A stretch of DNA of 37,134 bases from Thiobacillus sp. 65-29. Lineage in GTDB: Bacteria; Pseudomonadota; Gammaproteobacteria; Burkholderiales; Thiobacillaceae. The DNA lies in contig MKWN01000005.1 in assembly GCA_001899775.1 (NCBI GenBank), positions 1 through 37,134 of the forward strand, read 5' to 3'. The position numbers and the translations under genes were made by a program. The notes beneath the pieces were generated by a model, which ran no database searches, was not told the origin of the DNA, and was given only the letters and a program-made list of their open reading frames with translations. Below are positions 2,264 to 18,691 of this stretch, in pieces (within the stretch, counting starts at the first letter, position 1; every line of letters begins with the position of its first letter).

Positions 2264-4870
2264 TTAAGTGTCCTGTGTTTCCACCTGAACCAGCGGCTCG
2301 TCGACCACCGTTGCCTGCGGGCGCGGGCGGCGGCGGGTGGGGTGGGGCGCGGCCGGGGTCGCGGTGTCCTCGACCGGGCTTGCCGGTGGGGCGGCGGTTT
2401 CCACCTGCATCAGGCTGACCGCTTCGGCTTCCTGGTGCACGGTGGGGCGGCGCCGGCGGCGGGGACGCGCGGGGGCGCCCGTTTCGCCCGCTTCGCTCGC
2501 GGCGGACCGGGTTTCCACCTGCTGCAGATCCGCCTTGCTGCTTGCCAGTTCGGCCAGGATCGCCGCGGGGGATGCGGTCACCGCACCCGGCAGGGGCGCC
2601 GCGGGGGCTTCGACCGCGTCCAATTGTAGCGGCTGCTGTGCCGGCGCGGCCGCAACAATGTCGGCGGCCGGTGCGGGTTTCCGTGCGGGGGCGGGTTTGC
2701 GCGCAACCTCGACAATGGCGCGGTAGCCGGCGATTTCGATCACCGCATGCGGTGCGCTGCCGTTCGTGCCCGCGGACGTTTCCGGACGTGCCTCGCGCGG
2801 GCGGCGGTTGCCGCGCCCACGGCGGCTGCGCGGCTCGCGCTTTTCGTCACCCGCTGCTTCGCGCGGCGCTTCGGTGGTTTCCGGTGTGCGCACAGTGACT
2901 TCGGCTTCGGGACGCGGCTTGGGCTGGCGCGGTTGGCGCGGCGGCTTGGCGGGTTGCTCGGCGCGTGCTTCGCGCGGTGCCTGCTCGGTGCGACCTTCCG
3001 TGGTGCGTGCTTCGCCGTTGCGTGCTTCGCCGTTGCGTGCTTCGCCGCGCCCTTCACCGCGGCTGCGACGCTGACCGGCCGGTTTGCGCTCGCGCCGTTC
3101 GGCGGGGCGCTCGGTGCGGGAGGGGGCGGCAACCGGTGCGAGCGCTGCAGGAACGGGCTCGGCGCCGGGGGCGGTTTCCTCGCCGCGTTTTCTGAACCAG
3201 CCGAAAATGCGGTCGAACAGGCCAGGTTGCGCGACCGGCTGGGCGGGCACGGCGGGTTGCGCTGCAACAGGCATCGGCTGCGGCGGCGGGGCGATGGACT
3301 TGACGGCGGCCTCCTGGCGCGCCGGTGCCGCAGCGGCCGCGGTCTGGTAGGTCGCCTCGCTTTCCGGCACGGCCATCATCCTGTAGCTCGGCTCGCCGGC
3401 GTCGCGCTGATTCAGCTCGTCGTGGCGCAGGCGGGTGATGGTGTAGTTCGGGGTCTCCATGTGGATGTTGGGGATCAACACCACATTGACCTTCAGCCGC
3501 GATTCGATGGCGTGGATGTCGACGCGCTTCTCGTTCAGCAGGAAGGTGGCAACGTCGACCGGCAGTTGCACGTGCACCGCGCCGGTGTTCTCCTTCATCG
3601 CCTCTTCCTGCAGGATGCGCAGGATATGCAGCGCAGAGGACTCGGTGCCGCGGATGTGGCCGGTGCCGTGGCAGCGCGGGCAGGTGTTGTAGCTGGTCTC
3701 GCCGAGCGAAGGCTGTAGCCGCTGGCGCGACATTTCCAGCAGGCCGAAGCGGGAGATCTTGCTGGTCTGCACGCGCGCGCGGTCGTGGTGCAGGGCATCG
3801 CGCAGGCGGTTCTCGACCTCGCGCTGATGCTTGGCGTTCTCCATGTCGATGAAGTCGATCACGATCAGGCCGCCGAGGTCGCGCAGGCGCATCTGGCGGG
3901 CCACTTCGTCGGCCGCTTCGAGGTTGGTGTTGTAGGCGGTCTGCTCGACGTCGCTGCCCTTGGTGGCGCGCGCCGAGTTGACGTCGACCGACACCAGCGC
4001 CTCGGTGTGGTCGATGACGATGGCGCCGCCCGAGGGGAGGTTGACCGTACGCGAGAACGCCGACTCGATCTGGTGTTCGATCTGGAAGCGCGAGAACAGC
4101 GGGACGTCGTCGCGGTAATGCTTGACCTTGTTGACGTTGGCCGGCATCACGTGCGCCATGAACTGCTGCGCCTGCTCGTAGACGTCTTCCGTGTCGATGA
4201 GAATCTCGCCGATGTCGGGCGAGAAGTAGTCGCGGATGGCGCGGATCACCAGACTGCCTTCCTGGTAGATCAGGAAGGCGCCCGACATCGACTGCGCGGC
4301 GCCGTCGATGGCTTTCCACAGGCTCAACAGATAATTGAGGTCCCACTGGAATTCCTCGGCGTTGCGGCCGATGCCGGCGGTGCGCGCGATCAGGCTCATG
4401 CCGTCCGGGACGTCGAGCTGGGCGAGCGTGTCGCGCAGTTCGTTGCGCTCCTCGCCCTCGATGCGGCGCGACACGCCACCGCCGCGCGGGTTGGTCGGCA
4501 TCAGCACGACATAGCGGCCAGCCAGCGAGACGTAGGTGGTGAGCGCCGCCCCCTTGTTGCCGCGTTCGTCCTTTTCCACCTGGACCAGGAGTTCCTGGCC
4601 TTCCTTCAGGTTGTCGGGGACGCGGCCGCCGTTGGGCAGGCAGGAGCGGGCGATTTCCTTGAACGGCAGGAAGCCGTGGCGTTCGCAGCCGTAGTCGACG
4701 AACGCGGCCTCCAGGCTGGGTTCGACGCGGGTGATGACACCCTTGTAGATGTTGCCCTTGCGTTGTTCCTTGCTGGCGGACTCGATGTCAAGGTCGACCA
4801 GCTTCTGGCCGTCGACGATGGCAACCCGGAGTTCTTCCGCCTGGGTTGCGTTGAAAAGCATGCGCTTCAT
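2264..4870 (-). CDS. rne: Ribonuclease E
   Basis: Endoribonuclease that initiates mRNA decay and processes rRNA and tRNA; scaffold of the degradosome. The 868-aa protein starts [19 protein letters not shown], as RNase E/G proteins do. It then shows the S1 RNA-binding region (about 35-120), the DNase I-like catalytic part with [11 protein letters not shown] and VIDFIDM (the two metal-binding Asp residues), and the zinc-link CPRCHGTG. After about residue 500 the sequence becomes a low-complexity Arg/Pro/Glu/Ala tail, typical of the disordered scaffold half. Odd features of the tail are three tandem NGEAR-type pentapeptides (DNA near 3003-3050) and three QVET motifs near the C terminus. The gene diverges from rluC as in E. 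coli, with a leader region of up to about 390 bp. RNase G is excluded by the length. Confidence 0.97.
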
Positions 4871-10123: not shown

Positions 10124-10168
10124 TGGCTCCCCGACCTGGGCTCGAACCAGGGACCTGCGGATTAACAG
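10124..10168 (-). repeat. Left attachment repeat (3' tRNA-Asn fragment)
   Basis: 45 bp identical to 18616-18660, the part of tRNA-Asn from the anticodon loop to the encoded CCA end. The 5' half of the tRNA is absent here, so this is a non-functional tRNA remnant and marks the left end of the integrated element. Confidence 0.95.
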
Positions 10169-10227
10169 GCCTTCCGGGGCCTCTGCTAGCCGCATTTAAA
10201 CACATTTAGACGCATAGACGAAGCAAC

Positions 10228-10250
10228 AAAAAACCCGGCACGCAGCCAGG
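10228..10250 (-). terminator. Terminator at the left end of the element operon
   Basis: On the minus strand, CCTGGC-TGCGT-GCCGGG (one wobble pair) is followed by TTTTTTG. It lies 24 bp after the stop of the interrupted regulator gene, so it would end transcripts coming from the element before they reach the attachment site. Confidence 0.75.
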
Positions 10251-10273
10251 TGTCTTTGCAGCACTCGATGGCT

Positions 10274-10681
10274 TCAGGCCATCGCTAAAATTTGCCGCAT
10301 ATCAAGTTCTCCGCGTTCATGCATTGCTGACCAGCGCAGCGCCTTGGGGTCATTGTTGAGCAGACGAAGGAAGTAGCGCGTGAGTTTAGGCAGATACTCT
10401 TTTGGCACTTGCGATAGTTTTTCATACAGGTCGCGTTGCAGCGGCGAATAACCGACGCCAGTTATAAGCCAATCAATGCTGATATTCAGGTCTTGAGCAA
10501 CCAAGAGCAGCGTGTAGCTGTTGCGGGGTATGGCGCCGCCTATCAGCCAACGCTATGCCGTGCGCGCCTTGCGCCCTGTGGCAGCCACCAGGCGATTGAT
10601 TTTCTCTTGGGTGTCGGTAATGCCGCGATGCTTGAAAGCCTCGTTCAAACGCTCGGCAAAGGTAGAATTGGCAGCAGCCAT
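10274..10681 (-). pseudogene. CI-like phage repressor/regulator interrupted by an amber codon
   Basis: Read from the ATG at 10681, the frame gives a 135-aa protein. It starts MAAANSTFAERLNEAFKHRG with a helix-turn-helix of the bacteriophage CI-repressor type, followed by LVAQDLNISIDWLITGVGY, where the DWLxTG motif is typical of that family. Codon 43 is TAG (10553-10555 on the + strand), inside the helix-turn-helix between ARTA and RWLIGG, where Tyr or another residue is expected. The frame is intact on both sides, so one base change explains the break. The remaining 3' part can only start from weak internal codons. It is most simply a pseudogene; suppression or a sequencing error is possible. 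Confidence 0.75.
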
Positions 10682-10763
10682 GATCGTGTTCTCCAGTAAC
10701 GCGATTGCGGTCAGGGGCTTCCAGGTGTTGACGCACTTGGACGGCCCCGCTAATCCAACAGGG

Positions 10764-10791
10764 TGTCGGACGTTTTTATCCTACGCCGACA
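10764..10791. promoter_or_regulatory. Operator-like inverted repeat upstream of the interrupted regulator
   Basis: TGTCGG (10764-10769) and CCGACA (10786-10791) form an inverted repeat around an AT-rich centre (TTTTTATCC). It lies about 80-110 bp upstream of the regulator ATG on the minus strand, in the only untranslated gap at this end of the element. This position suits an autoregulatory operator; no direct evidence supports binding. Confidence 0.3.
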
Positions 10792-10835
10792 TGCGCCGAA
10801 AGAAAACCTCCCCGTCAGAATCGACGCAGCGCGCT

Positions 10836-11216
10836 TTATTTCTGCCCGTCGATACCATCATCCCAACCCAATGCATTTAACGCCGCCAGGACGTACTGCG
10901 GGTGCTGCAGCATGGCGGCAGCAAGGCGGGCTGTTTGCAGGCTTGGGAACGTGGCGCACAGGTAAGGTTCAGGGTTTGCCAGCGCGCGGTCGGCAGCGCG
11001 TGCAAAGATTCTGAAGCGGGCGGATTTCGGGAGTCGTTGCGCAGCGCCGGTGCAGCGCATGCAGATGGTGACCGCGCCATGCGTGCGGTTGTCGTTGCTG
11101 CTTGCCGTGAACACCAGCCCGGCCGTACTTGGTCGGATCGGCAGGCCACAGGCCGGACAGCGAAAAAGAAGACGCTCAGCAATGCCGAAAGGACCAGGCA
11201 CGTCCGGGCGCGTCAT
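10836..11216 (-). CDS. Zinc-ribbon protein of the element, unknown role
   Basis: From the ATG at 11216 the protein is 126 aa; the frame is open upstream to 11312, but the earlier starts are not better supported. Two CXXC pairs (FRCPACG and ICMRC) spaced about 30 residues apart suggest one zinc ribbon. This resembles the phage Ogr/Delta late-gene activators in size and position, but those have a different Cys spacing, so I do not assign that function. The C-terminal half is Ala-rich and helical (LQTARLAAAMLQHPQYVLAAL). Confidence 0.6.
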   Translation of the reverse strand: MTRPDVPGPFGIAERLLFRCPACGLPIRPSTAGLVFTASSNDNRTHGAVTICMRCTGAAQRLPKSARFRIFARAADRALANPEPYLCATFPSLQTARLAAAMLQHPQYVLAALNALGWDDGIDGQK

Positions 11217-11331
11217 GGGTAAAGGCTCAGCCGCGCATTTACCCCCGGTGGGCCGCATGGGTGTGGTACCAGGGTTTCCCCTGGCCGGTGCGCGCTTATG
11301 CAGGCCCTCCATCTCAGCGCGCCCCGGTGAT

Positions 11332-11922
11332 TCAGTTCAGGCCATGCAACCGCTGCACGGCCAGCTTGATGGGCTCGATCTTTTCCGCCAGCAGCTTGTC
11401 CAGATCGGCGGGGCGCTCGGCTTCCAGCAGGCCCTCAAGCTCGAGAACGGCCTCAGAGACACTGGCACACACGTCGGCGATTTCTAACGCATTACTGGAT
11501 GTGCGCTTCAGGGGCCCCATGAACGTCCTCTCGGTGAACTCGGTCGACTGGAAAGAGTCCCTGGCCTTGGCAGCGAGGTTACGCAACTGGGTGATTGCCT
11601 GGCCGATTCGAGGATCGGCCAGACGACGCAGCTTGCCCCGCAGCTTGTCGCCAGTGAAGGGCGTGATGCCCGGATCAATCTGACGCAGCTCCTGTCGGGT
11701 GGCGTTGAGCTCCGCTTCGAGCTCGGCGATCCTTTGCACCAGGGCGGGCCGCACGTTGGCCAAGGCCGCGGTGCGCTTGGTTTCATCGCGCTCGAATTCG
11801 GCCAGCCGCACCAGGAGCTTGGCGCGCTCGGCTTCGTTCTTGTCCTGGGCGGCTTCCTTCAGGCTGTCAAGCACGCCGCCAGAGCTGAGCAGTTCGACCG
11901 CTTCGTTCAAGTTCGTCGTCAT
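11332..11922 (-). CDS. Coiled-coil protein next to the capsid gene, possible scaffold
   Basis: A 196-aa protein with a long charged helical region (about 20-90; AELEAELNATRQELRQID) and a helical C terminus rich in Leu/Glu. It starts 3 bp after the capsid stop codon with a GAGGG ribosome-binding site, so the two should be made together. I recognise no family. Its size, helicity and coupling to a capsid gene that lacks a scaffold (delta) domain make a scaffolding or capsid-size role an attractive inference, nothing more. Confidence 0.65.
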   Translation of the reverse strand: MTTNLNEAVELLSSGGVLDSLKEAAQDKNEAERAKLLVRLAEFERDETKRTAALANVRPALVQRIAELEAELNATRQELRQIDPGITPFTGDKLRGKLRRLADPRIGQAITQLRNLAAKARDSFQSTEFTERTFMGPLKRTSSNALEIADVCASVSEAVLELEGLLEAERPADLDKLLAEKIEPIKLAVQRLHGLN

Positions 11923-11925
11923 AGA

Positions 11926-12876
11926 TCAGGCCCTCACTGCGGTGGTGACGAAATGCGATTTCGTCGCGCTGGCGTTCGGCGGGGTGACCGGCGCACTGAG
12001 CGCCGGCATGCCGTCCATCCGAAAAACCAGCTTGAACGCGGTGATGTCTCGGTCGAACCACAAGTGCATCGAGCCATTGAGTTGCGGCGTCTTGGTCGCG
12101 GCAACGTAGTACCGCATATCCGCAAGGATCAGGTCGCCAGGTGTTCCCGGCGCCGCGCATGAATCGGTGGTAACGACCGGCAACCCCGCCAGGGTGCGGG
12201 TGGCGCCGTCCCAGGTGCCCAGCATGATGATCTTCGAGTAGGCAGACGGGTTCGCAAGCCAGACAGAATCCATCGGGCTCAGGCTGCGATCCAGCATGTG
12301 GGAAATGTTCGCTTCGACGATGCTGCCCGCTGCCTGGCCGCCTTCCTTGTCGACGGTGATGAGCGCATCGCTGTTGCGAATCCCGAGCGGCCGGGCCACG
12401 CCGGGGCCGTTCACTATGGAGTCATTCACCTTCAACGTGACGGCGGTTTGCAGGGCGAGCGGAAGCCATGCCGCCAGGGCGGCCGAGTCATCAAGCAGTT
12501 CGTCGGTGACCGGCACCAGCGCGACCAGCTTCTTGAGCTGGAAGCGGTCCATGTCGAGCTTCGGCTTACGTTGCGGGAGCTCGCCCCCTTCCCCCTCCCA
12601 GGCGGCGATGACGCCATCGCTGCCATACGGGGTTGCGGTGTCGAGCGGGAGCTCGATGGAGTTGCCGCGAGTGATGGGCACCTCACGACACAACGGCAGC
12701 AGCGCGCCCGTGGCAGGCATGAGAATGGCCTCGGCGGCGTCGACCGGCACGGCGTACCCGCCGGACGGACCATCCACTGTCGAGCCAAAGCTCGTGGCGA
12801 GCGCCATCGGTGCACGAATCCGCACCTCGTAGGCGATCGCCGCAATGCGGGTTTGTTGGGCTGCAGTCAGGTTCAT
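11926..12876 (-). CDS. HK97-fold major capsid protein, short form
   Basis: A 316-aa protein of the Phage_capsid family. The N-terminal arm leads into PSGGYAVPVDAAEAILMP, then the E-loop/spine region with AAWEGEGGELPQRKPKLDMD, and LVALVPVTDELLDDSA, followed by NDSIVNGPGVARPLGIRNS. This order is the standard one for HK97 gp5-type shells. The usual N-terminal delta (scaffold) domain of about 100 residues that a protease removes is missing, and no protease gene lies upstream. The ATG overlaps the stop of the preceding gene by 4 bp. It forms, or once formed, an icosahedral shell; whether that shell serves the element or interferes with a helper is open. Confidence 0.85.
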   Translation of the reverse strand: MNLTAAQQTRIAAIAYEVRIRAPMALATSFGSTVDGPSGGYAVPVDAAEAILMPATGALLPLCREVPITRGNSIELPLDTATPYGSDGVIAAWEGEGGELPQRKPKLDMDRFQLKKLVALVPVTDELLDDSAALAAWLPLALQTAVTLKVNDSIVNGPGVARPLGIRNSDALITVDKEGGQAAGSIVEANISHMLDRSLSPMDSVWLANPSAYSKIIMLGTWDGATRTLAGLPVVTTDSCAAPGTPGDLILADMRYYVAATKTPQLNGSMHLWFDRDITAFKLVFRMDGMPALSAPVTPPNASATKSHFVTTAVRA

Positions 12877-13304
12877 GTCGTTTGCTCCTTGTGTGTGGTG
12901 GAGCCTTCATCTTGGGCGTGGTCGTGTGCAATTGGCAGAGCCCGATTGCACGAAAACAGCAGGTCATGAATGCGGCGTTTCTTGGGCATTTCGCCGCCCA
13001 TGTCGTCCGATGCCTGGCATGCGAAAAAGTACGCGCGCCGCAATGGCGTCGCATCGGCTGGCGGCTCAGCAAGGTGGCGCTGCTGCGGCCAGACCCGCGC
13101 ATAGAACTCGTGCAACGCCTCGGCCAGCACGCGCGGGCTTCCCACCAAGCGATGCGCATCACGGATGGCCCCATCCCGCCTGGCTCGCGCTTGGTCACGG
13201 TCGAGCCGAGAATGCAGCGCATCAAGCACCCGCGCCTGAGCGGCCGCGTCTACCCCAGCGAGGGATAGCGCGACGCGGGCGGCGTGCTGATAGCGTTCGA
13301 TCAC
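12873..13304 (-). CDS. Unknown protein between small terminase and capsid genes
   Basis: A 143-aa protein starting at a GTG, with no recognised domain. The N-terminal half is helical and rich in Ala/Arg (AQARVLDALHSRLDRDQARA); the C terminus is His/Asp/Thr-rich. In complete HK97-like phages this position holds the large terminase, portal and protease genes; none of their motifs is visible. The stop overlaps the capsid start (ATGA), so the gene is translated in step with capsid. Confidence 0.6.
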   Translation of the reverse strand: MIERYQHAARVALSLAGVDAAAQARVLDALHSRLDRDQARARRDGAIRDAHRLVGSPRVLAEALHEFYARVWPQQRHLAEPPADATPLRRAYFFACQASDDMGGEMPKKRRIHDLLFSCNRALPIAHDHAQDEGSTTHKEQTT

Positions 13305-13340
13305 CTGGTGAGCCTTGTACGGTGCGACTTATTCGGCGGC

Positions 13341-13844
13341 TTATTCCAGAAGCGCGGCAGCGGCGATGTCGGAAGCCTCGGCTTCCAGATCGTCCAGCGT
13401 CATCGACGCAGCAATGTTGCGGGCCTTGGCAACCTCGCGGGCGATGGTTTCAATGTCATCCATCGTCAGGTTCTGATTGCGCCGCCGGATCGCACCGGGA
13501 ATCGCGTCCAGGATCGCCGCCGCCCGCGCGCCCGCCGCCGCCAGCACCTCCTCCAGCAGATACGTCGGTGCCAGCTCGCGCCGCGTGATGGCGTTCTGCA
13601 TGGCGATTTTGTCCGCCTGTTCCCTCGCCAGCCGCGCCCGCTCGGTCGCCAGATCAAGGTCGCCATTGGTCGCCCGGCCTGCCGCGATCTCGCGCACGTG
13701 GGCACAGTAGTCCAGCAGCCATACCCCGGCAGCATCGCCGTCCTTCAGCACCCCGCGTGCGATCAGATCGGAAACCGTTTGCTGAGTAACACCTATCAGC
13801 TCGCCAAATTCTTGCTGGCTTGATTGCAAAGACAGATCAAACAT
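13341..13844 (-). CDS. Nu1-like terminase small subunit / DNA-packaging protein
   Basis: A 167-aa protein. The N terminus has a winged helix-turn-helix like lambda Nu1 (FGELIGVTQQTVSDLIARGV), then a charged helix (DLATERARLAREQADKIAMQ) ending in RRELAPTYLLEEVLAAAGAR, a pattern shared by Nu1/DUF1441-type proteins. These bind the cos or pac site and recruit the large terminase. A GTG at 13847 is an alternative start; the ATG at 13844 sits better behind the GGGGGG ribosome-binding site. No large terminase follows, so packaging would need that of a helper phage. Confidence 0.75.
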   Translation of the reverse strand: MFDLSLQSSQQEFGELIGVTQQTVSDLIARGVLKDGDAAGVWLLDYCAHVREIAAGRATNGDLDLATERARLAREQADKIAMQNAITRRELAPTYLLEEVLAAAGARAAAILDAIPGAIRRRNQNLTMDDIETIAREVAKARNIAASMTLDDLEAEASDIAAAALLE

Positions 13845-14257
13845 CACTTACACCCCCCTGATAAAAATTTCATAACTAGAGAAAGCGCGCGGTCCTTTGG
13901 CGCCGTGCTGAAACCTCCCCAGTAGGACCCAAGAATGGTGCAGCGTGAATACACTCGGCTGTCAGTCGTCACCCAACCAACAAACGTCAACCCGACTGTC
14001 AACACCACCAACGCCCAGCCTCTAGCCAAGCGCCGCACTCCGTCGGCCGCGTGCCTGGGTAAACCGTATAGGACCCCCACACCAAAGCGGGGAGTGGGCA
14101 GCACGCGCACTCGTGAGCTACTCCCTAACGAATTTGTCGAATAAGTCGAAAGACCTGAGTTGTTCGAGTCTTTCGACTTTTTCGTTAGGTGATTCCGCTT
14201 GCGTGCACAGCGCGTTGATAGAAAAGAAAAAGTGTTCTCAGTTGGTTTCATGGCGAA
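13845..14257. other. Non-coding gap between the replication and head cassettes
   Basis: About 410 bp without a convincing gene. It contains the nested palindrome described separately, an AT-rich stretch just before the small-terminase gene (about 13855-13885) that may hold its promoter, and a patchy GC-rich part. A minus-strand ORF of 135 codons crosses it, but it runs through the palindrome and has no good ribosome-binding site. Its position before a small terminase fits a packaging (cos/pac) site or late promoter. Confidence 0.5.
14124..14189. repeat. Nested palindrome (two-tier inverted repeat)
   Basis: Outer arms CCTAACGAA (14124-14132) and TTCGTTAGG (14181-14189) are perfect 9-bp complements. 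Inner arms AAGTCGAAAGAC (14143-14154) and GTCTTTCGACTT (14168-14179) are perfect 12-bp complements with a 13-base loop. The spacers between the tiers are unequal (10 and 1 bases). There is no T-run, so it is not a standard terminator. It is a candidate packaging signal, protein-binding site or single-strand replication site. Confidence 0.7.
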
Positions 14258-15862
14258 TCACTCGGCTTTGTCGAAGCACTTGGGGTTGACCCGGTAGCAC
14301 ACGGAAGGGGGCGCGCCCCGATTGATCTCCTTGAACTCGCGCAGCACCTCACGCTGCACTAGGCGTTCGGCCGCCTTGATGAGACGGTCGACGGAGCGGA
14401 AGCGGCCTTCCATCGCCTTCTGGCAGGTGCTGCGCTTGAATGACGTCAGCCGGTGCGCCTTGGCCCACTTCAGGATGGCGGCTGCGTCACCGTCGACGCT
14501 ATCGGCACCCAGCAGGCCGAATGCTTCATGCGCGTGCGGCACCAGCAGCCGACACAGATCCACCGCGCGTTCTACTGCACGATGGCTCACCACTTCCGCA
14601 CCAAGCCCGACGTCTGCCACTTCAAGCAGCCCGGCGATGCGCGCCGCCGCGCCGGGCAGCTTCGAGGTCCAGTCGGTGATGGCTTCGAACTTGCCTCCGT
14701 CGCCCTGGCCTTGCTCGATCTCGTCGGCGAAGTCCAGCCACAGCTCGCGCGCTGGATCGGTGAACGGAATCACCTTGGGCGCTACCGGGATCAACGAGCG
14801 GCCGGCGAGCAGGTCGAATAGGCCCTGGTCGTATGCGCGCGCAACTGTCGCAGGAATCGCCACGCGCCGCCGCACGTCACGCTTGCCGACGTTGCTCTCT
14901 GGGATGGCGTACAGAAAACGCGCGAGCAGGCCGGAGTCGCGGAAGCGACGGCCGCTTGCCACGTCGGCGAGCACGCCGGGTTGCAGCGCAAGGCCGAAGC
15001 TGAGCGACGGCCGCTCCAGATACGCCTCGCGGTCGGCACGGTCGACGCGGACGGGACTGCCGGCGTGCCCCTGTAGGAACACGTCGAGCGACGCCTGTCC
15101 GCCGGAATACAGGCCGGCCATCACCAGGAATATCCCGGCCTCGTCGGTGAGCACTGCCATGCGTTCGCCCTGCTTCACCAGCAGGGTTTGCAGCGTCTCC
15201 GCCGTGGTGTCTCCGGTAAACAACTTCGGCGGGAATTGCTCGGCGGGCATGTCCTGTTCTTCCTGGCCGATCTCGTCGCGCAGCCGCTGCCGAGTCTTGT
15301 CGTCGTCCGCGTTGGCCGCGTCCTTCGTCAGCTTGGCGATGCGCTGCTTGGCGACAGCGCGTGCTGCATTAACTCGCGCGATCTCGCGCCGCAGCCGGTC
15401 GCGTTCGAGCTTTTCCCATCGCAGCAGCGGCGCGATCAGCGCGTTGATCACGGCTGTCTTGCGGCTCCCGCTCGGCATCGCCGTGAGCGTCCACAGGGCC
15501 AGCGGCTCGGTGTAGTCATCGCCATAGGGTGCGACTTCCACCTGGCGCTGCAGGCAGGTTGCCAACACCGCGAGCGACAGCAGCGTCGACATTGCCTCCG
15601 GTGTCTGGGTCGAGTCGGCGACCGCGTGTGCCATGTCGCCGAGCCATCCGGGCAGCAGCGCGGCAGGAATCGCCGGCACGCGGATCGAGCCGGGCAGCAT
15701 GGGGTCGGGCCACTCCGGTTCCGGCGCGCCAGAATCGCCCAGGCGCGACGATCTCGGCGCGGTTGGGGATTGGGTATGTACCGGCACCGCAGCGGCCACG
15801 GATTTGCGCACGGCATCGGCGCCGGCGACGGCGGCCAGGTCGTTCATGTCTGTGCCGTTCAT
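14258..15862 (-). CDS. DUF3987-type helicase-like replication protein
   Basis: A 534-aa protein. Residues 50-95 hold the DUF3987 entry motif (WPDPMLPGSI ... LPGWLGDMAHAVADS), followed by a P-loop-like TAMPSGSRKTAV (Lys135-Thr136), where the Gly before Lys is Arg. Later come a charged helical insert and the Walker-B-like VLTDEAGIFLVMAGLYSGG. Such proteins accompany Toprim primases in satellites and islands and probably act as the replicative helicase. The C-terminal 80 residues look like a winged helix (ILKWAKAHRLTSFKRSTCQK). The ATG overlaps the primase stop (ATGA), with GGGGAGGTG as ribosome-binding site. An earlier in-frame start would overlap the primase gene by about 480 bp and is unlikely. 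Confidence 0.85.
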   Translation of the reverse strand: MNGTDMNDLAAVAGADAVRKSVAAAVPVHTQSPTAPRSSRLGDSGAPEPEWPDPMLPGSIRVPAIPAALLPGWLGDMAHAVADSTQTPEAMSTLLSLAVLATCLQRQVEVAPYGDDYTEPLALWTLTAMPSGSRKTAVINALIAPLLRWEKLERDRLRREIARVNAARAVAKQRIAKLTKDAANADDDKTRQRLRDEIGQEEQDMPAEQFPPKLFTGDTTAETLQTLLVKQGERMAVLTDEAGIFLVMAGLYSGGQASLDVFLQGHAGSPVRVDRADREAYLERPSLSFGLALQPGVLADVASGRRFRDSGLLARFLYAIPESNVGKRDVRRRVAIPATVARAYDQGLFDLLAGRSLIPVAPKVIPFTDPARELWLDFADEIEQGQGDGGKFEAITDWTSKLPGAAARIAGLLEVADVGLGAEVVSHRAVERAVDLCRLLVPHAHEAFGLLGADSVDGDAAAILKWAKAHRLTSFKRSTCQKAMEGRFRSVDRLIKAAERLVQREVLREFKEINRGAPPSVCYRVNPKCFDKAE

Positions 15863-16782
15863 TTGCGCACCTCCCCGAACAGCGGCCGCGCCACGAATCC
15901 GCCCACCAGCATCGCGGCCTCGGTCGCGCAGGTCAGCCCAGGATTGCCGGACGTCTCGGAATCGTCGTCGGCGATCAGGATGATTCTGGTTCGCGGGTTG
16001 TTGAACGCCAGGTGCCGCGCGACTTCCTTCAGATTGCCGGCGTTGAAGGCCGCGGCTGTGGCGTAGCCGGTGGCCTCGTACACGGTGGCAGCGGTGGCGT
16101 AGCCCTCGGCGACGCAGATCGTGCCGGCCGGCTTGCCAATGGCGAAGTAGCAGCCCTTGATTCGGCCCCCGGTCAGGAACCGCTTGGAGCCGTCTGGCCC
16201 GATCAACTGCAGGGTGTGCATCACGCCGTCGCGCCGCGCGGGGATCAAGAGCTGTTCGCGTATCTGCCGGATGCCCCAGGCCTTGACCTGCTTCCTCTGC
16301 AGGTACGGGTGCGCCGGATCGGCTGGCCGCGATGCCTTCCACATCCTTGCGGCCTTGGCCCTGGCTTCCTCGTGAACCTTCTTTTGTGCCGCTCCGCGCT
16401 CGTATTGAATCTGACGCATGCGCTCCTGCAGCTCGCGCCGCTCCTGCCAGTTGATCTTGCGCGCGTCGGCATCGCGCCAGGCGTGTGTTTCACCTGTACG
16501 CCACGATCCAACAGCACCATGCGGGATAGGGTCCAGGTGCAGCGCATACCATCCGTTTTTTGAACCGGGCTTGTCGCCCTCGACGCGGTATCGGTGTATG
16601 CGGCCATCTGCCACCGGAACATCCTTGACCGGTCCCAGACCCAGCATGCGCATGAATTCGAGCAGCCGCTGTTCTACGCCTTGCGCGATCTCTGGATATT
16701 GCCTAGTATTTGCGCAGTAGTTTTTTGAAGCCGCCCCGTCGCTCCCCAGCTCGCGGGCGGCTTTTTCTTTGTCCTGGCTCAT
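15859..16782 (-). CDS. Toprim-domain DNA primase of the element
   Basis: A 307-aa protein. The middle is a charged helical linker (WQERRELQERMRQIQYERGA); the C-terminal half is a Toprim domain with Glu226 in CVAEGYATAATVYEATGY and Asp272-Asp-Asp274 in IILIADDDSETSGN. This half matches the primases of P4-like and conjugative elements. The N-terminal zinc finger of full primases is absent; the zinc-binding protein encoded just upstream could supply it. The ATG at 16782 overlaps the upstream stop (ATGA) behind GAAGGGGA; the longer frame to 16974 would overlap that gene heavily. Confidence 0.85.
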   Translation of the reverse strand: MSQDKEKAARELGSDGAASKNYCANTRQYPEIAQGVEQRLLEFMRMLGLGPVKDVPVADGRIHRYRVEGDKPGSKNGWYALHLDPIPHGAVGSWRTGETHAWRDADARKINWQERRELQERMRQIQYERGAAQKKVHEEARAKAARMWKASRPADPAHPYLQRKQVKAWGIRQIREQLLIPARRDGVMHTLQLIGPDGSKRFLTGGRIKGCYFAIGKPAGTICVAEGYATAATVYEATGYATAAAFNAGNLKEVARHLAFNNPRTRIILIADDDSETSGNPGLTCATEAAMLVGGFVARPLFGEVRK

Positions 16783-17132
16783 GCGTTCCCCTTCGCTGGC
16801 GATGCCAGCAGCAGGCCGTCTGACGCGGCTTCGCGCGCCTCTTGCACCAGGTGCGCAGGCATCCGGCCGCCATCGCGGCGAATTGCTGCAGAACAAACCC
16901 CGCAGAAGAGCCACGCCGTGGTGAACACCCGCCCGGCAGGATCGCCGTGTTTGACACGCCCGACAGCGCGCCATTTGCGGGCGCGTGTGAAAGGCTTATT
17001 GCAGCAGCCGCAACGCTTTCCGTAGCCGCTTGCAATGAGGTCCTTTGCAACAGCTTGGGAAACCTCTCCCTGCAGCGGGAGCTGCATCAGCAGCGCGTCG
17101 GCGTGGGTGCCTGATTTTGCGGTGTACATCAT
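16779..17132 (-). CDS. Zinc-finger protein coupled to primase
   Basis: A 117-aa protein with two CXXC pairs (Cys41-Cys44 in KRCGCCNKPF and Cys77-Cys80 in LFCGVC) that should bind one zinc ion. The N-terminal part is helical (GEVSQAVAKDLIASGYG). Its start and stop both overlap neighbours by 4 bp, placing it between the 76-aa protein and the primase. A role as the detached zinc-binding part of the primase, or as a regulator, is inference from this position. Confidence 0.65.
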   Translation of the reverse strand: MMYTAKSGTHADALLMQLPLQGEVSQAVAKDLIASGYGKRCGCCNKPFTRARKWRAVGRVKHGDPAGRVFTTAWLFCGVCSAAIRRDGGRMPAHLVQEAREAASDGLLLASPAKGNA

Positions 17133-17359
17133 GACGCCGCCTTTTGGCCGATGGCCACGGCCGCCAGCTTGAAGCGGCCAGGGTGAAAGCGCAGGCGGCC
17201 AGCGACCACGATCAGAGCCCCATGCTCGACCAGGGCGTCCCGATTGCCCCGCAAGTACCAGCGGATAGACTGCTGCGTGGGGAAGGTGTTGTGCACGCTG
17301 GCATGCAGCGTTTCGAGGTCTACAAACTCGTCGAGCGAGGGAAGTTCGGCTTCAATCAT
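17129..17359 (-). CDS. Small DNA-binding-like protein, first gene of replication cassette
   Basis: From the ATG at 17359 the protein is 76 aa, with an ideal ribosome-binding site (AAAGGAG, 6 bases before ATG). An upstream ATG at 17428 would add 23 residues, but it lies inside the stem of a 53-bp repeat and has no Shine-Dalgarno sequence, so I prefer the shorter form. The region TFPTQQSIRWYLRGNRDALV followed by a short beta-like wing (IVVAGRLRFHPGRF) suggests a winged helix-turn-helix. Similar small proteins open the primase operons of islands and may act as excisionase or replication regulator; this is inference. Confidence 0.65.
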   Translation of the reverse strand: MIEAELPSLDEFVDLETLHASVHNTFPTQQSIRWYLRGNRDALVEHGALIVVAGRLRFHPGRFKLAAVAIGQKAAS

Positions 17360-17396
17360 CAGAATCTCCTTTAGTTCAAGCGCCTTGGCGAGCGCG

Positions 17397-17449
17397 TGAA
17401 GGTGATTCTGTGTGTTTGTTGCGGACATTATTAGGCAAAAAATGTCCGC
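17397..17449. repeat. 53-bp direct repeat, copy A, with hairpin
   Basis: 49 of 53 bases match copy B at 17498-17550. The right half forms a 9-bp perfect stem: GCGGACATT (17421-17429) with AATGTCCGC (17441-17449), loop ATTAGGCAAAA. It lies in the leader of the replication cassette. Confidence 0.85.
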
Positions 17450-17460
17450 ATGGCGGTTGT

Positions 17461-17513
17461 CACAGAATCACCTTGTTTCATGCACCTTGCGAGTGCATGA
17501 AGGTGATTCTGTG
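17461..17513. repeat. Large two-part inverted repeat in the control region
   Basis: CACAGAATCACCTT (17461-17474) is the perfect complement of AAGGTGATTCTGTG (17500-17513), and inside it CATGCAC (17479-17485) pairs with GTGCATG (17493-17499) around a 7-base loop. The AAGGTGATTCTGTG word occurs again in direct orientation at 17399-17412, so the region holds three copies of a 14-bp motif, two direct and one inverted, as in iteron or operator arrays. Confidence 0.85.
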
Positions 17514-17550
17514 TGTTTGTTGCGGAAATTTTTAGGCAAAGAATTTCCGC
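17498..17550. repeat. 53-bp direct repeat, copy B, with hairpin
   Basis: Copy B of the repeat at 17397-17449. Its stem is GCGGAAATT (17522-17530) with AATTTCCGC (17542-17550), loop TTTAGGCAAAG. Compared with copy A, one C-G pair in the stem has become A-T, changing both arms, so the pairing is kept while the sequence drifts. It lies just downstream of the integrase stop codon. Confidence 0.85.
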
Positions 17551-17568
17551 CCTGTGAATCCGGCCGGC

Positions 17569-18525
17569 CTAAACCCGGCCATCAAAAACCCGCGTCATCA
17601 ATCGACGCCGGGAATCGGTGTTCAGGTGCGCATAGCGTTGCACCATGCGCAACTGGCGATGCCCGAGCGTGTCGGCGATTTCAAGCAGGCTCGCGCCGGC
17701 TTGTGCCATGTAGGACGCGGTGCAATGCCGGCAATCGTGGAAGCGGAAATTCTTGATGCCGGCCGCCTCGACAGCCTCGTTGAATGCCTTGGCGGTGGCG
17801 TAGGGTTGCGACGGCCGCAGCCGGCTGCGGAACACAAGCGCTTGGCTGGTAACCGCATCCTTCGGCGCGAAGCGATCCAGCTCGGCGATCACCTGCGGCA
17901 GCAGCACCAGGACGCGGCGGTCGCCGTTCTTGGTGTCGTTCAGCACGGCCTCGGCGCGAGCGACATCAATGTCGCACCAGCGCAGCCCGAGCAACTCGCC
18001 ACGGCGCGCGCCGGTGGTGAGCGCCATCAGGACAAACACATAGAGGCGCGGCCACGGCGATTTGACGCAGGCGGCCAGCAGGCGGTCGCGTTCGTCGTCG
18101 GACAGATAGCGCACGCGGCCGCGCGTCTCGGTGTTTTTCTCGACGTGGCGGGTCGGCGAGTCAAAGCCGCGCGGCACCAGGCGCTGCCGCTTTGCCCAGG
18201 TGAACAGCGCAGCGAGTGCGACCTGATAGCGGTTGAGCGTTGCGCCACTGCGCTGGCCAGCCTTTTTCTTGAAGATCGGATTGTCGTCGGCGTCGCGGCC
18301 GCTGTAGACACGCGCCGGCTCGGTGGCGAGCGTGCGCATCGCGGCGTCGATATCGTCGGGGGTTATTTCGGCCAGCACCTTGTCGCCCAGCAGGCGAATC
18401 CAGGTGTTGATGCGGTGATAGCGAGAATTATCCCGCCCCTGGTAGGCGTCGAGATAGTCCCCGGCGATCTTCGCCAGGGTGGTGCCGGCTGCGCCAACAG
18501 CTTGGGCGTTTTGAGTTTCAGTCAT
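17569..18525 (-). CDS. int: Site-specific tyrosine recombinase (integrase)
   Basis: A 318-aa phage-type integrase that should insert and excise the element at tRNA-Asn. The N-terminal part (20-120) is the core-binding SAM-like domain; the catalytic domain shows Arg174 (TTGARRGELLGL), His263-X2-Arg266 (FHDCRH), His289 (LGHRQ) and the nucleophile Tyr298 (VQRYAHL). All catalytic residues are present, so it looks active. The gene begins 90 bp from the intact tRNA and reads away from it; an AGGAGA ribosome-binding site precedes the ATG. No separate arm-binding domain or excisionase gene is obvious. Confidence 0.95.
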   Translation of the reverse strand: MTETQNAQAVGAAGTTLAKIAGDYLDAYQGRDNSRYHRINTWIRLLGDKVLAEITPDDIDAAMRTLATEPARVYSGRDADDNPIFKKKAGQRSGATLNRYQVALAALFTWAKRQRLVPRGFDSPTRHVEKNTETRGRVRYLSDDERDRLLAACVKSPWPRLYVFVLMALTTGARRGELLGLRWCDIDVARAEAVLNDTKNGDRRVLVLLPQVIAELDRFAPKDAVTSQALVFRSRLRPSQPYATAKAFNEAVEAAGIKNFRFHDCRHCTASYMAQAGASLLEIADTLGHRQLRMVQRYAHLNTDSRRRLMTRVFDGRV

Positions 18526-18544
18526 GGTCGGTCTCCTGTTTCGG

Positions 18545-18578
18545 AAAACCCGGCTATCTGATTTAGATCGCCGGTCTT
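18545..18578 (-). terminator. Element-encoded terminator downstream of tRNA-Asn
   Basis: On the minus strand, CCGGC-G-ATCT-AAATC-AGAT-A-GCCGG (one internal mismatch) is followed by GTTTTCC. It lies between the tRNA CCA end and the integrase ATG. It would end the tRNA transcript in place of the chromosomal terminator that the insertion moved to about 10090. Confidence 0.55.
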
Positions 18579-18615
18579 ACGCAGAGGCCCGACAAGGGCT
18601 TGAAACTAAAGGATT

Positions 18616-18660
18616 TGGCTCCCCGACCTGGGCTCGAACCAGGGACCTGCGGATTAACAG
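18616..18660 (-). repeat. Right attachment repeat (inside intact tRNA-Asn)
   Basis: 45 bp identical to 10124-10168. It covers the tRNA from the anticodon loop to the CCA end, so recombination leaves a complete tRNA. The identity stops two bases 5' of the anticodon, which suggests crossover at the anticodon loop, a common site for tyrosine recombinases. Confidence 0.95.
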
Positions 18661-18691
18661 TCCGTCGCTCTACCGACTGAGCTATCGGGGA
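18616..18691 (-). tRNA. tRNA-Asn (anticodon GTT)
   Basis: A 76-nt tRNA with encoded CCA. The acceptor TCCCCGA pairs with TCGGGGA, the D-arm holds AGCTCAGTCGGTAGAGC, the anticodon loop is CTGTTAA (GTT at 18656-18658 on the + strand), and the T-loop is TTCGAGC. It is the integration site of the element and is intact. Confidence 0.98.

Follow-up and report, generated by a model that had tools for sequence, protein, structure and literature searches.

A probable capsid-carrying phage satellite at a tRNA-Asn gene of Thiobacillus

Phage satellites that carry a capsid gene are already known in other bacteria. Among Gram-negative phage-inducible chromosomal islands (PICIs), 21 of 29 reference elements have such a gene, which is unneeded for transfer (PMC10111431); EcCICFT073 carries capsid and decoration genes, and PmCI172 carries a capsid homologue and makes small capsids (PMC6092414). 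SaPIbov5 encodes Ccm, a protein of HK97 fold whose Delta domain is 44 residues shorter than its helper's; Ccm sits in pentamers and the helper protein in hexamers, and Ccm alone forms no capsids (PMC5052747, PMC8569155). Capsid-forming PICIs (cf-PICIs) are defined by genes for portal, large terminase (TerL), protease and connectors (PMC10690885), and the satellite phiAH14b is packaged alongside its helper (PMC4936722). All these papers are represented here by excerpts, as are those from which our definitions and comparisons are drawn (PMC6893505, PMC12409344, PMC10690885, PMC10803314, PMC11389934, PMC4936722); the excerpts of PMC10187409 and PMC10872708 hold nothing on satellite capsid genes. 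Control of stolen-capsid size by satellites has been worked out for few systems, and of the capsid genes of Gram-negative PICIs, the one tested was dispensable and another lies in an element that makes small capsids. Here we describe an element at positions 10124-18660 of a 37,134-nt stretch (the window) of Thiobacillus sp. 65-29, contig MKWN01000005.1, which, to judge from its sequence and that of its relatives, is probably a satellite of phages and resembles the Gram-negative PICIs. L-numbers denote compared loci and G-numbers genomes.

The element is bounded by perfect 45-bp attachment (att) repeats, the distal copy at 10124-10168 having the same sequence as the integrase-side copy at 18616-18660, which forms the 3' end of a tRNA-Asn(GTT) gene (18616-18691, minus strand); it measures 8,492 bp from att to att, and a chance origin of an exact 45-bp repeat is far too unlikely. 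An earlier note on this DNA had already described these repeats and a one-stranded gene order, and both descriptions hold: all eight called genes lie on the minus strand, as do the other genes of the element for which coordinates are given below, P117 and the small distal genes being uncalled and added from homologues. Five genomes of the genus have the empty site (L209, L210, L228, L232, L233), with an uninterrupted BLAST match of 506-517 bp across the joined flanks; outside the window's genome, 49 members of the genus have the YihY-type neighbour gene in full, and the comparison covered the 29 of them that were obtained as loci, of which 19 matched in part and five not at all, the fetched stretch stopping close to the tRNA for many. 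Nine elements with att repeats of at least 45 bp have att-to-att lengths of 8492, 8555, 9233, 10093, 8888, 8569, 8786, 10724 and 5952 bp (median 8.79 kb; seven within 8.49-10.10 kb, outliers 5.95 and 10.72 kb); L051 (about 7.8 kb) and L053 (about 13.1 kb), with repeats of 18-19 bp, fall outside this set, and its shortest member, L042 (5952 bp), is without a recognised major capsid protein (MCP). Plasmids matched the element DNA over tRNA-sized stretches only, of about 50 bp. We take 10124-18660 to be a clean, presumably mobile element and no remnant, with all but one regulatory gene intact.

The same tRNA-Asn gene holds other elements in four genomes: L040, L273 and L274 with both att copies, and L272 with one, its contig ending inside the element. 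These elements share 83-91% integrase identity with the window element, but their late genes differ. L040 encodes a small terminase subunit (TerS) together with a fusion of protease and MCP (605 aa). In L272 and L274 the late genes are those for TerS, for a protein that we call P143, and for an MCP of another lineage. L273 has P143 and an MCP as well as a gene resembling a tape measure, and the profiles used recognised neither TerS nor primase nor helicase in it. Beyond this site, the two ends of the 8,922-bp IMG/VR viral contig L197 repeat each other exactly over 94 bp, which would suit a circle or concatemer (or be an assembly effect). This contig encodes an integrase, a small helix-turn-helix (HTH) protein, a protein of Toprim/DUF5906 type, P143 next to an MCP, and also a minor tail protein that is GPZ-like; TerS is unrecognised. 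It alone among 31 whole contigs (20 viral, 11 from genomes) combines a terminal repeat with a recognised MCP; L142 has a 35-bp repeat and no recognised MCP. Tape-measure-like genes were also seen in other small integrated elements (L240 12918-14594, L041 11755-14721, besides L273 8118-10124).

These relatives bear on the simplest alternative, that the locus is a decaying prophage or deletion derivative in which TerS and capsid genes survive by chance. An HK97-type MCP and a TerS are ordinary prophage genes, and decay would suit the distal HTH repressor-like gene (10274-10681), which has a premature stop at codon 43 (10553-10555) and a longer, open homologue of 139 aa in L278. Against this, BLAST with the weak control described below found no TerL or portal gene in the four same-site relatives (one cut by a contig end), L197 shares much of the layout, the capsid module recurs elsewhere under purifying selection, and a long branch of about 1.5 changes per column leads to phage MCPs. 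Because of the same-site relatives and the recurrence of the module we rejected decay as first choice, and consider it very improbable. The earlier note had preferred a satellite and had proposed that a deletion derivative would betray itself by relatives with the missing genes at the same site; its preference is strengthened by relatives without TerL or portal and by recurrent synteny, and its appeal to intact genes stands only in part, since the stop in the HTH gene means that not all genes of the element are intact.

The capsid module itself consists of TerS (13341-13844), P143 (12873-13304), which overlaps the MCP gene by 4 nt, the MCP (11926-12876, 316 aa) and a coiled-coil protein (11332-11922, 196 aa). 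L028, from the same genus, lies at a tRNA-Arg site between att repeats of 49 bp; in it, too, an MCP (69% identical) and a coiled-coil protein (54%) come after TerS and a homologue of P143, on a backbone with a different integrase and a 934-aa primase-helicase. The dN/dS figures for the window-L028 pair (0.24/1.25 for the MCP, 0.41/1.27 for the coiled-coil protein, 0.26/2.47 for P143), obtained by a crude NG86 count from one sequence pair with dS near or past saturation, indicate purifying selection on the MCP gene. The coiled-coil protein is a candidate scaffold or assembly factor; in the PDB it matches designed coiled coils only, and peptide patterns found no close relatives in viral contigs.

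P143, the signature protein of this satellite group, stands ahead of three capsid lineages: type a (PF05065; window and L028), type b (phrog_617; L034, L036, L244, L272, L273, L274) and type c (PF25209; L037, L240, L052 from Malikia granosa, and L242, where one gene intervenes). When 24,275 open reading frames (ORFs) of 263 loci were searched with a profile built from 11 P143 proteins, this added L273, L197, L241 and L243 besides further copies of the same places, and found no P143 in nine prophage or phage loci (L029-L032, L252-L255, L275); a previous five-sequence profile, searched against 399 genomes of the order, had matched six, one of them being that of the window. L241 and L243 have P143-like ORFs and no recognised MCP, and capsid-bearing elements without P143 were found as well (L039, L040, L049, L051, L053, L276). 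By sequence, P143 matches nothing credible in the PDB. The recurrence of the order TerS-P143-MCP in other genomes, which the earlier note had suggested looking for, is thus established, and P143 provides a handle for finding more such satellites.

The MCP (PF05065, 1e-31) covers positions 101-380 of the 385 of TIGR01554, and in alignments with four prophage MCPs of its lineage, its residue 28 or 29 falls opposite their residue 126-143, so about 100 N-terminal residues, the scaffold or Delta domain, are absent. Only 27 residues precede the capsid domain, and ten open codons lie upstream of the start. In type a the two satellites have 27 and 25 residues ahead of the capsid domain versus 124-142 in five phages; in type b, six satellite proteins without protease have 46-82 versus 344-408 in three phage proteins, protease included; in a third group L039 has 96 and L280 has 89 versus 126 in phage L275; and L051 has 112 and the unclassified L279 has 120. 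Type c proteins match only the C-terminal part of a 644-position head-and-protease family, L037 from 384, L052 from 336 and L242 from 286. MCP starts are certain to ten codons in the window and L037, nine in L028 and 16 in L036 and L273, and uncertain in L034, L244, L240, L242 and L052 (62-134 open codons upstream); L277 and L278, cut by contig ends, were excluded from the N-terminal counts, and L197 was left out of the Delta-less set because its start is open (frame 402 aa, 298 called). In the MCP tree the window protein groups with that of L028 (99/99), and the two stand next to phage proteins (88/88); long branches leave other parts unsure. Peptide patterns found no close MCP relatives in genome or viral contigs, and no PDB entry matched by sequence. 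A PF05065 capsid occurs in 13 of 56 genomes of the genus, satellites and prophages pooled.

An HK97 homologue with a shortened Delta domain is the mark of a Ccm-type redirector, and the window MCP bears it. We propose that a helper phage, itself inferred, would induce the satellite, which would excise and replicate with its own proteins; its TerS would dock on the helper's large terminase and steer packaging to satellite DNA; the Delta-less MCP would be built into the helper's procapsids, much as the pentamers take up Ccm in the case of SaPIbov5, perhaps assisted by P143 and the coiled-coil protein; and the resulting small shells would fit about 8.5 kb and be too small for the genome of the helper. 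The helper would supply the portal, the protease and the large terminase, along with tail and lysis proteins. For the Ccm-like capsid role taken by itself, we see the chances as about evenly balanced.

Two other views of the capsid gene bear on its role only and leave the identity of the satellite as it is. The gene might be a captured passenger without a packaging role, or a mere poison of helper assembly. Several capsid lineages do occur at one site, and deletion of the capsid or decoration gene of EcCICFT073 left transfer unchanged and interference in place (PMC6092414, in excerpt), an experiment that also counts against our proposal; purifying selection on the MCP, the constancy of the P143-MCP order over three MCP lineages, and the small capsids of PmCI172 and SaPIbov5, which have capsid homologues, make a passenger or poison rather unlikely. 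Alternatively the bare MCP might self-assemble in the manner of an encapsulin, the small shell later receiving a helper portal and tail, as the lack of Delta domain and protease and the short lead of 27 residues might suggest. Ccm alone yields no capsids (PMC8569155), though, and the encapsulin model NF041188 scores 14.1 bits on the MCP against a cut-off of 180, and we regard self-assembly as distinctly improbable.

The TerS is of Nu1 type (PF07471, 2e-9; phrog_57, 2e-20). It is 47% identical over 130 aa to the TerS of the satellite-like element L251 and, behind the HTH, 45% identical over 58 aa to the Nu1-type TerS of L253, a prophage of the genus in which the neighbours of TerS are a TerL of GpA type, a portal of lambda type and a protease-MCP of 702 aa. 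L253 may be a fitting kind of helper, and its likeness is consistent with a TerS that keeps the part binding the helper's TerL. The genes found agree with the contents given in the earlier note (Phage_integrase, Toprim_3, DUF3987, Phage_Nu1/phrog_57 and Phage_capsid/TIGR01554 domains, and a coiled-coil protein). So do those missing: family profiles (E<=0.05) of TerL, portal, protease and lysis proteins matched none of ten window proteins, apart from weak PHROG matches of the coiled-coil protein to tape-measure (E 0.0047) and terminase (E 0.027) families, which it alone gave and which we take as coiled-coil noise, and profile searches recognised no tail gene among the element's proteins. No TerL, portal or tail family is among the 25 listed of 46 PHROG families matched (E<=1e-4) by 49 proteins of the window element, L028, L036, L037 and L040; the 25 comprise integrase, primase, helicase, TerS, major head, excisionase, DNA-binding and some unnamed families. 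Six-frame BLAST of nine elements with seven phage TerLs and seven portals gave no match, with a weak control in which phage pairs detected each other in 8 of 21 (TerL) and 9 of 21 (portal) cases, so that very divergent TerL or portal genes may escape. In a Bradyrhizobium phage whose MCP is 35% identical, TerL, portal, S49 peptidase and MCP genes are consecutive. An own MCP and TerS would also suit a cf-PICI building its complete head, an identity that we rejected, and hold to be hardly credible, because the defining portal, TerL, protease and connector genes (PMC10690885, in excerpt) are unrecognised.

Besides EcCICFT073, several points weigh against the satellite proposal. The element is known here from sequence alone, its HTH gene is broken, and the selection estimate stems from a single, near-saturated pair. 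As marks of a resident helper, a GpA-type TerL (PF05876) and a further PF05065 capsid were looked for in the window's genome and neither is there, other helper types being unsearched. Prophage L029, which shares the MCP lineage of the window, encodes a TerS of Terminase_4 type and a TerL from a different family, and therefore TerS and MCP may not fit one helper. No AlpA was recognised in the window copy, though P99 occupies its place behind the integrase. In L041 and L042 the profiles used recognised no MCP. Finally, the satellite MCPs of L040, L049 and L276 are untrimmed protease-MCP fusions, L040 and L276 retaining a 310-residue N-terminal part and L049 being a 564-aa fusion, which speaks against a general rule of shortening. 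We nevertheless favour a satellite because of the empty sites, the same-site elements with other cargo, the recurring MCP/coiled-coil module, the similar element lengths, the L253 type of helper, the kinship of the primase with that of phiAH14b, the repeat-ended contig L197 and the precedent of Ccm.

The remaining genes follow the integrase inwards. The tyrosine integrase (17569-18525, 318 aa; PF00589, 2e-26) is separated from P99 by two hairpin-forming direct repeats of 30 nt (17420-17449 and 17521-17550, in the region 17420-17550), candidate regulatory or Xis sites. P99 (17129-17428), a small conserved protein at the position of an excisionase/AlpA-type regulator, has homologues in L040, L272, L273 and L274 and no credible Pfam or PHROG family match, AlpA/HTH included; L028 has an HTH_17 protein at the equivalent position. 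P117 (16779-17132), a small protein with five cysteines, is followed by a 307-aa Toprim primase (15859-16782; PF13362 (Toprim_3); phrog_2249, 1e-55), whose best match in the phage collection is that of phiAH14b (46%), and by a DUF3987 helicase-like replication protein (HEL; 14258-15862; PF13148, 1e-98), with an 82% relative in G033; P117 has a 68% identical homologue in L040. An own integrase with a specific att site, and an own primase and replication module, characterize Gram-negative PICIs, and the element has both. The gap without called gene at 13845-14257, with a hairpin at 14124-14189, is a candidate origin or packaging site. At the distal end a 158-aa ORF probably is really a 74-aa gene (10836-11060), conserved in L276 and L277 (69%) and in L036 and L274 (53%).

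A PADLOC scan of seven window proteins gave no match, and in Rfam (E<=0.5) the tRNA alone exceeded its gathering score. A sub-threshold match to a SymR-like RNA (10676-10751, plus strand; 35.8 bits versus a gathering score of 61) is in antisense orientation where the broken HTH gene starts. A tRNA-Ala called by ARAGORN at 2917-3011 (95 nt), within a long opposite-strand gene, is probably false. The same genome has a second, distant DUF3987-type gene (27% identity; G000:C16:158550-159965), possibly of another element. L053 of Malikia granosa combines related replication genes with a lambda gpE-type capsid (PF03864) at 15300-17253, and a gene on its other strand resembles, by eye, a transposase. 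A protein at L279 3-2600 (G042), whose start presumably resembles that of Cas9, adjoins a tRNA-Leu element with a capsid gene.

Several features appear to be new. One is a betaproteobacterial satellite group, in Thiobacillus, marked by P143, whose gene precedes capsid genes that can be exchanged; others are the exchange of cassettes at one site and an MCP short of some 100 N-terminal scaffold-domain residues. We tentatively suggest, at somewhat below even confidence, that betaproteobacterial satellites swap capsid cassettes (mostly TerS-P143-capsid) of different phage lineages at one site and at nearly one size, each tuned to a different helper; that three lineages, having lost built-in scaffold and/or protease, would work only inside helper assembly and force a small shell; and that P143 would be a satellite-specific packaging or assembly factor. 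One att site with elements of like size and different capsid genes, several of them N-terminally shorter, makes the idea that Delta length sets shell size testable. Our literature search turned up no comparable element from betaproteobacteria; it did not reach the papers that first described cf-PICIs, tycheposons and VEIMEs, so marine satellites with similar capsid genes may exist.

The earlier note had supposed that a capsid gene is absent from most PICIs and that this element would be an unusual intermediate type. The reference Gram-negative PICIs cited above do not support the first, and EcCICFT073 and SaPIbov5 with its Ccm are precedents that undo the second. The fetched stretch of EcCICFT073, its integrase end outside, holds primase, SSB, MCP and decoration genes and no TerL, portal or tail gene; given this and the capsid genes of the reference PICIs, a minimal capsid-carrying satellite is therefore no unknown intermediate type. 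Among 11 window queries, tblastn matched this stretch once, through HEL (34 aa, E 0.001, opposite strand within the MCP gene), a match that we take as chance, and the two primases have no detectable homology; the element seems to resemble a Gram-negative PICI in its working, descent from that group being beyond the evidence. No P4-like sid or psu family is among the Pfam and PHROG matches, with no P4-specific search made.

Like the Gram-negative PICIs EcCICFT073, PmCI172 and, among HE-PICIs, 11capE, the window element is att-bounded, near 10 kb and one-directional, with int, then replication genes, then a late zone with an MCP, and without a recognised lysis or tail set (PMC6092414, PMC10111431). 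It differs from them in being betaproteobacterial, in having no recognised AlpA and its own Nu1-type TerS, in the P143 and coiled-coil genes beside its MCP, and in an MCP without Delta domain. With cf-PICIs it shares its own MCP and TerS, but their portal, TerL, protease and connectors are unrecognised in it. With the Pseudomonas satellite phiAH14b it shares a short primase (46%) adjoining a helicase-like gene; phiAH14b has a homologue of a tail assembly protein and, in the excerpt available, no identified terminase and no own products in particles (PMC4936722). A DUF3987/DUF5906 primase is common to the element and the PICMIs, which integrate at fis and have no capsid genes (PMC10803314, in excerpt), unlike the window element with its tRNA-Asn site and MCP. 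SaPIbov5, a cos-type Staphylococcus aureus pathogenicity island, offers a parallel in Ccm, an HK97 capsid homologue that the satellite itself encodes and whose Delta domain is shortened, while the excerpted accounts identify no protease in the satellite (PMC5052747, PMC8569155); the window element belongs to another phylum, has its own TerS, and has an MCP that is short of about 100 residues rather than 44.

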